From Planctomycetaceae bacterium (lineage in GTDB: Bacteria > Planctomycetota > Planctomycetia > Planctomycetales > Planctomycetaceae), in the NCBI GenBank assembly GCA_019636285.1, contig JAHBXV010000010.1, positions 1 through 64,000 on the forward strand: a DNA stretch of 64,000 bases, written 5' to 3'. This document shows positions 2,573 to 8,602 of this stretch, piece by piece. Position 1 is the stretch's first letter, and the number at the start of each line of letters is the position of its first letter. The notes under the pieces were generated by a model. It was not told where the DNA came from and searched no databases. It saw only the letters and a program-made list of their open reading frames with translations. The translations under genes and the position numbers were made by a program.

Positions 2573-3091
2573 ATGTTGGCGAAATTGAGTTTGTTTGCCG
2601 GTCTGACGCTGATGTCAGCAGTAGGTATTGTGTTCACGGCCGGAGGAGGCGCCGCGGCGGCGAAGTCGGTGGGTGGATGTTGCAGCGGCAACGCCTGTGG
2701 TTTGTGCGAAACCTGCACGTGCGACTGTGTCGATGGCTGTCGCTGCTGTGAAACGGGTGATTGCCTGTGTGGCGATGCCTGCGAATGTGTCTGCTGCGCG
2801 GCCAAGTCGGCCCAGATCAAGACGGCTTCTGCCAAGGCGGAAACCTGCGAGAAATCGTGCTGTGCCGACAAAGCCTCGGTGACGAAAAAGGCCACGCTGG
2901 GCAATGTCATCGCGGCCGTCGGCGCTTCGGCCGGGGCTTGCTGCGCAAGCAATGCGTGCGGACTTTGCAAAGACTGCACGTGCGATTGCGCGGCGGACTG
3001 CACGTGTTGCGAAACGGGTGACTGCACCTGTGAAGCGTGTGAGTGTGTTTGCTGTGCCGCGGCGGAGTCGTTGCCGTCGTGTGTTGAGTGA
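2573..3091 (+). CDS. Exported metallothionein-like protein with two 16-Cys repeats
   Basis: The 172-residue protein starts at the ATG at 2573, preceded by AAGGA. Residues 1 to about 28 form a signal peptide (LSLFAGLTLMSAVGIVFTAG). The mature part has two near-identical Cys-rich modules, residues 36-75 and 123-161, each with 16 cysteines in the same order (CC, NACGLC, CTCDC, CC, ETGDC, ACECVCC). A Lys/Ala linker with three more cysteines joins them and one Cys lies near the C-terminus, giving 36 Cys in 172 residues. Cys pairs of CxC and CC type suggest multinuclear binding of soft metals such as Cu, Zn or Cd, as in metallothioneins. Known bacterial metallothioneins are usually cytoplasmic and much shorter, so this may be a distinct exported family. 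A strong terminator follows. Confidence 0.85.
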   Translation: MLAKLSLFAGLTLMSAVGIVFTAGGGAAAAKSVGGCCSGNACGLCETCTCDCVDGCRCCETGDCLCGDACECVCCAAKSAQIKTASAKAETCEKSCCADKASVTKKATLGNVIAAVGASAGACCASNACGLCKDCTCDCAADCTCCETGDCTCEACECVCCAAAESLPSCVE

Positions 3092-4315: not shown

Positions 4316-7300
4316 TTAATCATAACCCAGGTTGGGGGCGAGCCAGCGTTCGATTTCGGGGACGGGGACTCCCTTGCGGCGGGCGTAGTCTTCGACCTGG
4401 TCTTTGGTGATCTTGTCGACGGCGAAGTACCGCGCTTCCGGGTGGGCGAAGTAGAGACCGCTCACCGAGGCGGCGGGCCACATGGCGTAGGATTCGGTCA
4501 GCTTGATGCCGGTTCGCGGGGTCGCTTCCAGGAGGTCGAACAGTCGGGGCTTCTCGGTATGGTCCGGGCAGGCGGGGTAGCCGTAGGCCGGGCGGATGCC
4601 GCGATATTTTTCGGCGATCAGATCGTCATTCGAGAGACCTTCGCCGCCGCCAAAGCCCCAGTCTTTTCGGGCCTGTTCGTGGAGTTTCTCGGCGAAGGCT
4701 TCCGCCAGTCGGTCGGCGAGGGCCTTCACCATGATCGACGAGTAATCGTCGTGCTTCTGATGCTCGAAGTCGTCGGCCAGTTCGTCGCAGCCAAAGCCAG
4801 TGGAGACCGCGAACGCGCCGAGGTAGTCTGTGCGGCCGCTGTCTTTGGGGGCGATGTAGTCGGCGAGCGAGCGGAAGTATTTCTGCTCGGGGCGTTCCCA
4901 TTGCTGGCGGAGCATGGGGAAAGAGGTTGAGGGTTGAGGGTTGAGGGTTGAGGGTTCTGAGGAAGAAGGACGCGGGGACTCGGGGAGGGGGAGATTGGGG
5001 GAGAAGATGGGTTGGTCGTTGGTTGTGACGGTCGACAGGAGGCCTGATTCGGCCAGTAAATTGAGGGTGCGGTAAACCGTGGCGCGGGAGTGACGCTTGG
5101 CGCGGGGGACTCGGTTGATTAACTCATCGGGGGTGAAGGCGGAGCGCGAGGTCAGGGCGACTTCCGCGACCGCGCGGCGTTCGACGGAGAAGGCCATCCC
5201 CTTTGTTGCCAAGAACTGCTCGAATTTTTCGATCGCTCGGGCTAAGGGAGTTTTTGACTGATCTGCCGCAGCCGTTGGGTAGACGAGGATGTCGTCGCCA
5301 TTGGAGTTGGCGGGCCAGAAGCCGTAGACGCCGCGGGCGGTCAGCAGTTTTTCGCGGATGATGCGGTCGAGAAGTTTGCGGGCGTCGTCGTAGAGCTTTT
5401 TGGCTTCGGTGCCGACGGTCGCGTCTTCGAAGATGCGCGGATATTTGCCCTTCAGTTCCCACGTCATGAAGAACGGCGACCAGTCGATGTAGGGGATCAG
5501 TTCTTCCAGCGGGTAGTCATCGAGCTGTTTGAGACCGAGGAATGAGGGCGTGGGGATATCGACCGTGGCCCAATCGGTCGGGAACCGGCGTTCGAGAGCC
5601 TCTTGATAAGGAACCAGCTTGCGAGTGGCCTGCATCCCTTCATACGTGCGGCGATCGCGCTCCTGATCCTGACGGACCTTAGCGACATAGTCTGCCTTAC
5701 GATCCGCGTCGATCAGGCTTTCGACGGCAGGGACCGAGAGCGAGGCATCGACAACGTGGATCACCGGTTCCCCGTAGTGGGGGGCGATCTTGACGGCCGT
5801 ATGCCGCGCGCTGGTCGTTGCTCCGCCAATCAACAGAGGGACGACGAACCCCTGCCGCTGCATTTCCTTGGCGACTGTGGCCATTTCTTCCAGCGAGGGT
5901 GTAATCAGGCCGGAGAGGCCGATGATGTCGACACCTTCGGCTTTCGCGGTTTCGAGGATCTTGTCGCAGGGGACCATCACGCCGAGATCGATGACGTCGA
6001 AGTTATTACAGCGCAAGACGACCGCGACAATGTTTTTGCCAATGTCGTGGACGTCCCCCTTCACCGTCGCGATCAGGACTTTGCCGCGGGAGGAAGACGT
6101 GGTCGATGGTTGAGGGTTGATGGTTAATGGTTCGGAAGAAGCGGCGGCTTCTTTTTCGGCTTCCATGAAGGGCTGAAGGTAGGCGACCGCCTTCTTCATG
6201 ACGCGGGCCGATTTGACGACCTGCGGGAGGAACATTTTGCCCTGGCCGAAGAGGTCGCCGACGATGCTCATGCCGTCCATGAGCGGGCCCTGAATGACGT
6301 TCAGGGGACGGCCATATTTCTGGCGGGCTTCTTCGGTATCGACTTCGATGTAATCGCTGACGCCTTTGAGCAGCGCGTGTTTGAGGCGTTCTTCGACGGG
6401 GCCGTTGCGCCATTCCTCGACGACGGCTTCGGTTTCCGACTTCGTGGCCTTCATTTGCGAGGAATAGTCGATCAGCCGTTCGGTCGCGTCGGGCCGACGG
6501 TTGAGGAGGACGTCCTCGACGTATTCGAGCAGTTCCTTGTCGATTTCCTCATAGACGGCGAGTTGACCGGCGTTGACGATGCCCATATCGAGCCCGGCGC
6601 GGATGGCGTGATACAGGAAGGCCGCGTTCATCGCTTCGCGAACGAGTTCGTTGCCGCGGAACGAGAACGAGACGTTGCTGACGCCGCCGGACGTCTTCGC
6701 ATGCGGGCAGGTCGCCTTGATTTCGCGGACGGCGTCGATGAATTCGACGGCGTAGTTGGCGTGCTCTTCCATCCCCGTGCCGACTGTGAGGATGTTCGAG
6801 TCGAAGATGATGTCTTCCGGGGGGAACCCGGCCTTTTCGGTCAACAGTTTGTAGGCCCGCTGGCAGATCGCGACCTTGCGGTCTTTGAGGTCGGCCTGTC
6901 CCTGCTCATCGAAGGCCATCACGACGACGGCGGCCCCGTAACGGCGAATGGTGCGGGCCTGTTCGAGGAACTTGTCTTCGCCTTCCTTCATGGAGATCGA
7001 ATTGACGACCCCCTTGCCGGAGAGGCATTTGAGCCCGGCTTCGATGACTTCAAATTTCGAGCTGTCGACCATCACCGGCACCTTGGCGATGTCGGGGTCG
7101 TCGGCGATCAGGTTGAGGAAGTGGGTCATTTCGGCGGCGGAGTCGAGCAGACCTTCGTCCATGTTGACGTCGATCATGTTCGCGCCGTTCTCGACCTGCT
7201 CGCGGGCGATCGAGAGAGCTTCTTCGTACTTCTTCTCGCGGATCAGCCGCGCGAATTTCTTCGAGCCGGTCACGTTGGTGCGTTCGCCGATCATTAAGAA

Positions 7301-8410
7301 GGGCGAGGAGCCTTGAGCGGAAGGCTGAGAGCCAGAGGAAGCGTCGGACGGGGTGGTGTCTTTCAGCGCGAGGAGTTCGGAGCCGCTGTAAAGCGAGTCG
7401 TGGGCGCCTTCGGGGATGCGGCGCGGGCGCTGGTCGGCGACGGCTTCGGCAATTTCCTTGATGTAGGCGGGCGTGGTGCCGCAACAGCCGCCGACGATGT
7501 TGACCCAGCCGTTCTTCGCGAACTCGCGGATGTTCTTCGCGACGTCGGACGGCGAGGCATCGAAGCCCCCCATGCCGTCGGGCATGCCGGCGTTGGGATA
7601 ACAACTGATGTACTTCGGCGCGATATGGGCCAGCGATTCGAGGTAGGTTCTCATCTGCGCGGGACCGAGCGCGCAGTTGAGGCCGACGGACGTCATCGGA
7701 AAATGCGAGACGGCTGCCCAGAAGGCTTCGAGCGTCTGCCCAGTGAGCGTACGTCCGCCGGTGAAGATCGTCCCGGAGACCATGACGGGAATCCGCCGTC
7801 CGGTTTCCGCGAAGACCTGCTCGATCGCTTTGAGACACGACTTCATGTTGAGCGTGTCGAACGATGTCTCCGGCAGCAGAACGTCGACGCCCCCTTCGAG
7901 GAGGCCGCGGACCTGCTCGGCATACGAGGCGACCATGTCGTCGAATGAGACCGGGCGATAGCCGGGACGGTCGGCGTTGAAGGAGAGCTGGACTTTCGTC
8001 GGTCCGATGCTTCCCGCGACGAAGCGCGGCTTCGACGGATTGCGAGCCGTGAATTCGTCGGCGACCGACCGGGCCAGCTCGGCCGCCTTGAGGTTGATCT
8101 CTCGCGTCAGGTCGGCGAGGCCGAATTCTTCCATCGAGACGATATTCGCGTTGAACGAATCGGTCTCGATGATGTCGGCCCCGGCCTCCAGGTACTGCCG
8201 GTGGATCGATGCGATCATCCGGGGCTGCGTGAGGACCAGCACGTCGCTGGCGTTCTTCAGGTCGATCGCATGATCCTTGAACCGCTCGCCCCGATAGTCG
8301 GCCTCGGTCGGATTGAACTGGTGAATCATCGACCCCATCGCCCCGTCAATGACGAGAATCCGCTGGGTGAGAAGCTCTTCAAACAAACCGAAAGGTTGGG
8401 GACCGGACAT
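4316..8410 (-). CDS. metH: Cobalamin-dependent methionine synthase with an inserted Fur-like winged helix
   Basis: MetH transfers a methyl group from methyl-tetrahydrofolate through B12 to homocysteine. The start is the ATG at 8410 ([14 protein letters not shown]), giving 1364 residues against about 1227 in E. coli. The domain order is: homocysteine-binding barrel with zinc ligands Cys246, Cys309 and Cys310 (GGCCGTTP); pterin-binding barrel ([11 protein letters not shown]); B12 domain with the DVHDIG motif and axial His788; and the AdoMet activation domain, ending [11 protein letters not shown]. Residues 1045-1165 have no counterpart in normal MetH. They contain a Fur-type winged helix (about 1058-1128, ATVYRTLN then ESGLL) and a Pro/Ser linker encoded by TTGAGGG heptads. 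A second heptad-encoded linker precedes the B12 domain. The reading frame is intact and catalytic residues are kept. I see no cobalamin riboswitch upstream. Confidence 0.97.
4928..4957. repeat. TTGAGGG heptanucleotide tandem repeat inside metH
   Basis: Four consecutive TTGAGGG units plus TT lie within the metH reading frame and encode the linker STLNPQPST between the Fur-like insertion and the rest of the activation domain. Degenerate forms occur at about 6106-6134 in the same gene and at 14014-14038 between genes. Confidence 0.85.
6106..6134. repeat. Degenerate TTGAGGG/TTGATGG heptad repeat inside metH
   Basis: Variants of the same heptad (GGTTGAGGGTTGATGGTTAA) encode the linker LTINPQPST just upstream of the B12-binding domain. 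Confidence 0.75.
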
Positions 8411-8516
8411 GGCGACGGGCAATCTGGCGAGGAAAACGGGCGGTAACTGGTCTGTACAGGTTGGGACTCTCGGCAAAGTATAACGGAATGGGCTTCACTG
8501 CCGTAGTCGGAAGAGG

Positions 8517-8602
8517 AGTCGAGGGTCGAGAGTCCAGAGTCGAGAAATGCTGGAGAATTCTGACGTTTTGGGCTCTCGACTCTCGACACTAGACTCTCGA
8601 CA
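8517..8602. repeat. Imperfect inverted repeat of CTCGA-rich units upstream of metH
   Basis: The left arm at 8517-8544 (repeats of GTCGAGAGTC type) is matched by an inverted right arm at 8572-8602 (CTCTCGACTCTCGACACTAG and onward), separated by about 27 bases. It lies between the divergent metH and HAD hydrolase genes. It looks like an expanded short-repeat palindrome, not a defined operator. Confidence 0.6.

Follow-up and report, generated by a model that had tools for sequence, protein, structure and literature searches.

A Fur-type winged-helix domain inserted in the activation domain of a planctomycete methionine synthase

The B12-dependent methionine synthase MetH is among the best studied modular enzymes. 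In the stretch of Planctomycetaceae DNA analysed here (64,000 nucleotides, hereafter the window), the metH gene encodes an additional segment inside the activation domain, which a preliminary description had read, from the sequence alone, as a winged helix of the type found in Fur regulators. The locus raises the question of whether this segment is a genuine domain on a normal enzyme, whether it is shared and preserved among related bacteria, and what it could do there.

The insert and its host enzyme

In the product of the window metH, Pfam matched S-methyl_trans, Pterin_bind, B12-binding_2, B12-binding, and Met_synt_B12 in order, with the activation-domain match divided into two stretches that flank the insert. 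The cysteines of GLNCALG and GGCCGT, which we take to be catalytic, the presumed cobalamin motif DVHDIG, and IDWSPFF and RPAYGY, presumably activation-domain motifs of MetH, can all be read in the sequence. Judging from these features, the protein is an intact B12-dependent methionine synthase, with methyl transfer predicted. One MetH was found in the genome at E 1e-50, and the MetE family (PF01717) had zero matches there in a search that was positive in 10 of 14 control genomes; MetH is apparently the sole methionine-making enzyme of the host cell. The features of the locus are:

4316-4318, minus strand: metH stop codon (open-frame reading).
4319-8410, minus strand: metH, B12-dependent methionine synthase MetH, complete, 1364 aa, P0001 (open frame, Pfam, NCBIfam metH and PRK09490 above cut-off).
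4319-4921, minus strand: MetH activation domain 3' of the insert, including a motif at 4559-4594 (Pfam, coordinates).
4922-5278, minus strand: insert, 119 aa, residues 1045-1163, between the strand NGDDILVY and FPMLRQQ (coordinates, linkers of 148 same-family genomes).
4925-4956, minus strand: heptamer array, 4.6 copies with 100% matches, encoding the 3' spacer of the insert (repeat analysis).
4997-5248, minus strand: Fur-type winged-helix domain, with H1 at 1055-1069, H2 at 1076-1086, H3 at 1094-1098, recognition helix H4 at 1109-1121, and wing strands at 1125-1130 and 1133-1138 (Pfam FUR, PDB profile search, AlphaFold, structural match).
5048-5086, minus strand: recognition helix, with Tyr1113 and Arg1114 as counterparts of Tyr56 and Arg57 of MgFur (alignment, coordinates; roles from an excerpt of PMC4506495).
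5279-5617, minus strand: MetH activation domain 5' of the insert, as modelled, model residue 1 being residue 932 (AlphaFold model, coordinates).

The insert had been placed at 4913-5281 (residues 1045-1165) in the preliminary description: the place proved right, and the limits were corrected to 4922-5278 (residues 1045-1163). In Pfam, FUR (PF01475, cut-off 23.1) matched the whole protein with 27.5 bits and the insert alone with 31.5 bits (E 2e-7). The match spans positions 2-66 of the 121 of the profile, corresponding to the DNA-binding half only. Indeed, the C-terminal dimerisation domain of Fur, with its metal/zinc sites, is missing, as had already been noticed, and the sequence runs on into a spacer and then into MetH. 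When a profile of four inserts was compared to the PDB, the 11 best matches were Fur-family chains (E 4e-9 to 0.017).

The AlphaFold model of the window MetH part, built on a 56-sequence alignment (window and related loci), has a mean pLDDT of 89.5, and the 10-residue blocks of the winged helix lie at 92-97, save two at 79 and 82. In the model, the insert forms four helices and a two-strand wing, and it was matched by structure to the DNA-binding domains of Fur, PerR, Mur, and Zur with Z up to 13.5 (13.5 to a published Fur model obtained by cross-linking and deep learning, 13.1 to the crystal structure of C. jejuni Fur). Winged helices unrelated to this family, TFE among them, matched it at Z 9.7 and lower, and Foldseek aligned it to PerR with E 3e-4. 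The MetH part of the model superposes on the E. coli and human activation domains with Z 38.0-38.8 and rmsd 1.7-2.0 over 318-322 residues, among the best nine matches. Furthermore, the MetH of G011, a genome of another genus, was modelled on its own 43-sequence alignment and showed the same fold in the same place (mean pLDDT 87.2, Fur-family Z up to 13.6). On these models, the insert folds as a well-defined winged helix and leaves the MetH activation domain that carries it normal and undisturbed. The earlier reading of a Fur-like winged helix in an open frame, with normal MetH on both sides, is therefore borne out by the Pfam and PDB profile matches, the predicted structure, the stop-free frame, the five Pfam domains, and the superposition on known activation domains.

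Three other FUR-family genes are present in the same genome; the nearest of them, a full-length Fur, shares 36-39% identity with the insert, too little for the latter to be its recent copy. Recent import was also considered on the basis of composition, which gave no uniform picture: compared to equal-length pieces of their own metH, the inserts of the window, G063, and G026 lie at the low edge of GC3 (fractions 0.001, 0, and 0), but those of G062 (0.448), G011 (0.136), G025 (0.091), and G059 (0.255) do not.

Other peculiarities of the locus were recorded. The window metH has a second heptamer array at 6100-6132, in the linker before the cobalamin domain, and two more lie upstream of the gene (GAGTCGA at 8516-8545 and CTCTCGA at 8573-8601), roughly in opposite sense. 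A cysteine-rich frame on the plus strand (2579-3091), without Pfam match, has a hydrophobic start followed by two similar CC..C.C blocks. In the related locus L034 (genome G052), the stop-to-stop metH frame reaches 1476 aa despite an activation-domain loop of ordinary length.

Helix-turn-helix domains at the same loop in related genomes

The family includes 170 genomes, 164 of which matched the query containing the insert, some of them via ordinary Fur genes only. The linker, from the WPA strand to LRQQ, was read in 148 genomes (in sets of 28, 40, and 80); that of G177 ends at the contig end, and 147 are complete. A recount across the 148 measured 141, the remainder being the contig-cut L038 and six read separately. 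Of the 22 genomes outside the 148, G075 and G144 matched the insert-free query, with no HTH-sized gap at the loop, and the other 20 of the 170 lacked a readable linker.

Linker length ranged from 20 to 63 residues in 140 of the 147 complete cases, 24 being the commonest value, and from 83 to 269 in the other seven. All the complete linkers longer than 63 residues (7/7) are HTHs. The architecture noticed in the window thus recurs in other planctomycete MetH proteins, and an HTH is present at the activation-domain loop in 8/148 same-family genomes, belonging to five genera. A single Fur-type domain is present in the window, G062, G063, and G011 (three genera). The G011 insert passes the FUR cut-off with 29.9 bits; those of G062 and G063 are under it (18.4 and 17.8 bits) but are 49-52% identical to the window insert. 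G026 carries two Fur-like domains in tandem, which Pfam calls weakly, one as MarR-like; the best match of one of these repeats to the PDB was just E 1.2, and the repeats matched the profile of the Fur-type inserts with a probability of 96.9 and E 1.4e-10. The contig-cut G177, of the same genus, has at least one winged helix at the loop. Lastly, G025 and G059, both from one genus, carry a LuxR/GerE-like HTH: the two inserts are 55% identical, the former scoring 24.5 bits in Pfam GerE (cut-off 23.5) and the latter 14.8 bits, under the cut-off.

Close relatives of these genomes (G001, G024, and genus g33) are without the insert. Linkers are short in the 14 proteins with IRQQ in place of LRQQ, and that of L217 has 27 residues. 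Repeat-like extra residues are found at the loop in G036, G012, and G130, with linkers of 55-63 aa.

Beyond the family, 370 of the 397 genomes of the class draw gave a match; the figures that follow are derived from the matches listed, with weak ones left out (about E 1e-20 to 1e-36, many in groups f3 and f8). Two-piece matches were obtained for all six HTH-bearing genomes, for some HTH-free ones, and, among the matches listed, for at least 11 genomes outside the family; in these latter, no HTH-sized gap was found at the loop. In the phylum draw, 193 of 294 genomes matched; among the stronger of these matches, G501, G583, and G609 were in two pieces. Other phyla were seen via 80 of 334 confirmed loci. 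Among these 80, the script did not locate the linker in three (L161, L164, and L165), and an HTH lies at the loop in two, L098 and L099; both are matches to genomes already counted (L099 is G011, and L098 is tied to G062). Also among the matches listed, the 120-residue linker of L117 2983-7053, a MAG of Sphingobacteriales (Bacteroidota), is a coding minisatellite (LKVEGCGLKDSH repeats) followed by further repeats.

Taken together, the repeats of the relatives, the heptamer spacer of the window, and L117 indicate that the activation-domain loop accepts insertions, and that length alone does not make an insert an HTH. What speaks most strongly for the importance of the DNA-binding fold is that all seven long inserts of the family are HTHs. 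This argument has its caveats: HTHs are common, and the independent gains are few, one Fur-like and one LuxR-like as a minimum.

Selection, history, and DNA-contact residues

G062 and G063 are the sole pair close enough to test well. Their inserts show 11.5 nonsynonymous versus 35.5 synonymous differences, with a dN/dS of 0.085 against 0.063 in the rest of MetH. Splitting the insert, dN/dS was 0.091 in the HTH core (bootstrap 0.013-0.241), 0.076 in the spacers, and 0.066 in the rest of MetH, the spacers being as constrained as the core. These values show purifying selection on the insert in this pair. At the larger distance between the window and G062, dN was 0.338 in the core, about 1.0 in the spacers, and 0.161 in the rest of MetH: the domain is therefore kept while the spacers turn over, and the core evolves faster than the rest of the enzyme. 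The dN/dS of the insert was 0.36 between the window and G011 and 1.05 between G062 and G011, with constraint evident in neither comparison; as the latter two inserts are 22% identical, values of this kind are of little weight. Between G025 and G059, the core had a dN/dS of 0.19, with synonymous sites near saturation.

In the MetH trees computed without the insert columns, the window groups with the insert-free G001, and G062/G063 group with the insert-free genus g33. The placement of window, G062, and G063 in a single MetH clade was rejected (p-AU 0.013, for a grouping chosen after an earlier tree). The presence of the Fur-type domain requires at least four changes on the 32-row tree, where gain and loss are indistinguishable. 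Because the distribution is patchy and the single clade rejected, the insert must have been lost, transferred, or repeatedly gained, and is dispensable somewhere. For window, G062, and G063, we favour one gain with losses, or transfer, as their inserts are about half identical and have the same limits; those of G011 and G026 may have been gained separately.

The residues that contact DNA are described for MgFur. According to the excerpted text of PMC4506495, Arg57 and Tyr56 read bases and R57A is without binding, Lys15 lies in the minor groove and K15A weakens binding (85 to 977 nM), and His33 is part of metal site 1. In our alignment, the counterpart of Arg57 is present in the window, G062, G063, and G011, and is Lys in G026 and G177. 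The counterpart of Tyr56 is Tyr in the window and G011 and His in G062/G063. The Lys15 position is occupied by Ala, Gln, or Ser in the inserts (Ala in the window), and the metal-site His33 is lost.

A scan of the upstream regions of six metH genes for palindromes (arms of 7-9, spacers of at most 9) yielded none that they share, and one each in G063 and G001. Rfam gave zero matches in the window or eight related loci, so that there are no riboswitch differences to correlate with the insert, and defence-system models gave zero matches too. As a separate observation, made by eye, the metH leaders of L036 and L037 contain the inverted repeat CGGTTTC-N16-GAAACCG, with identical arms and a different loop, which could form a hairpin or serve as an operator.

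Possible roles and comparison with known systems

The explanation that we consider best, with a probability of roughly 45%, is that of a bifunctional MetH, which would touch DNA, as trigger enzymes do, via a DNA-binding half acquired from a Fur-family regulator. The MetH of this lineage would have gained this N-terminal half in an activation-domain loop that is permissive. The domain would give the protein a second activity, DNA contact, through which a methionine-making enzyme could act on transcription. The MetH domain arrangement shifts with the state of the cofactor. According to PMC10567725, in the reactivation state the activation domain is positioned above the cobalamin domain, and the interdomain linkers are flexible. 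Carried on the SAM-binding reactivation domain, the module could make DNA contact a readout of whether MetH is in its catalytic or its reactivation state. We do not expect the protein to sense metal, since it lacks both the dimerisation half and the metal-site His. In favour of this explanation are the identity of the domain, also in the second genus modelled, the recurrence of HTHs at the loop, the purifying selection in G062/G063, the kept Arg57 counterpart, and the absence of MetE matches. Against it stand the replacement of Lys15, the missing dimerisation domain, the Lys at the Arg57 position in G026 and G177, the lack of a shared upstream palindrome, the patchy presence, a core that changes faster than the rest of MetH, the equally constrained spacers of G062/G063, and the long repeat of L117. 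A broader version, which we regard as doubtful, would make the reactivation domain of the family MetH a socket that has received HTHs of different superfamilies on more than one occasion, giving a state-dependent (cobalamin/SAM) regulator.

MetH reactivation requires a reductase partner, and the module could be a folded docking or spacing surface without DNA binding, for instance for this partner or for a second MetH copy; its Fur or LuxR origin would then reflect that HTHs are small, stable, and common. Purifying selection and a kept fold suit any function, this one included, and the loss of Lys15 and His33, together with the absent dimerisation half, is in line with it. However, the three genera with a single Fur-type insert all retain the major-groove Arg in it, and docking would not lead one to expect HTHs of two kinds at one site, so that we hold this role to be somewhat unlikely.

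Slightly less probable, in our view, is that the loop is simply tolerant, and that pieces of DNA, in some cases as large as a domain, are inserted there in frame, persist without function, and get lost. It would account for the repeat-like extras of G036, G012, and G130, the minisatellite of L117, and the heptamer spacer of the window, as well as for the patchy presence and the p-AU of 0.013 against one clade. It fits poorly with the insert dN/dS of 0.085 in G062/G063, with a core kept between genera while the spacers saturate, and with 7/7 long family inserts being HTHs rather than assorted domains, although the independent gains are few. The captured, non-functional domain considered in the preliminary description thus loses ground to the purifying selection in G062/G063 and the recurrence of HTHs at the site, while keeping some probability. 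Lastly, an error of assembly or binning, or two genes joined by a frameshift, might be suspected in a 113-contig assembly but can be dismissed, as the frame has no internal stop and the independent assemblies of G062, G063, and G011 (records L098 and L099) carry the same architecture.

We also compared the window MetH to known systems. The window protein is like MetH (PF02965; 1MSK, 3BUL, and 8SSC) in its five domains and in an activation domain that superposes with rmsd 1.7-2.0 over about 320 residues. Unlike the E. coli and human enzymes, which align on both sides of it, it has the 119-residue winged-helix insert. The preliminary description knew of no MetH with this architecture, and a DNA-binding module in MetH was likewise not reported in the literature that we searched, most subscription papers and bioRxiv being outside its scope. 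Should the module prove inactive, the loop would still be a site at which a large enzyme naturally tolerates insertions, and its natural variants would be instructive about domain insertion.

With the Fur/PerR/Zur regulators (PF01475), the insert shares the winged-helix DNA-binding half and a recognition helix with Tyr-Arg; unlike them, it is without the dimerisation half, the metal-site His33, and Lys15 (roles as in the excerpt of PMC4506495), and it is embedded in an enzyme. CarH also has, in a single chain, an HTH and a cobalamin domain resembling that of MetH (PMC11796333, in its excerpted text), and the NCBIfam CarH model gives a hit in the B12 domain of the window MetH with E 2e-4, far under the cut-off. 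However, CarH has an HTH of the MerR type and is not an enzyme, whereas the window MetH is a complete enzyme, and the HTH, of Fur type here and of LuxR type in some relatives, sits in another domain. A working module would add to CarH another way for a cobalamin protein of the MetH type to control genes.

The trigger enzymes PutA, NadR, and BirA join a metabolic enzyme and a DNA-binding fold in one chain, with terminal DNA-binding domains and known operators. The window MetH resembles them in bringing the two together and differs in that its module is an internal insert with predicted DNA binding; with a working module, MetH itself would serve as the readout of methionine, SAM, and B12 status.
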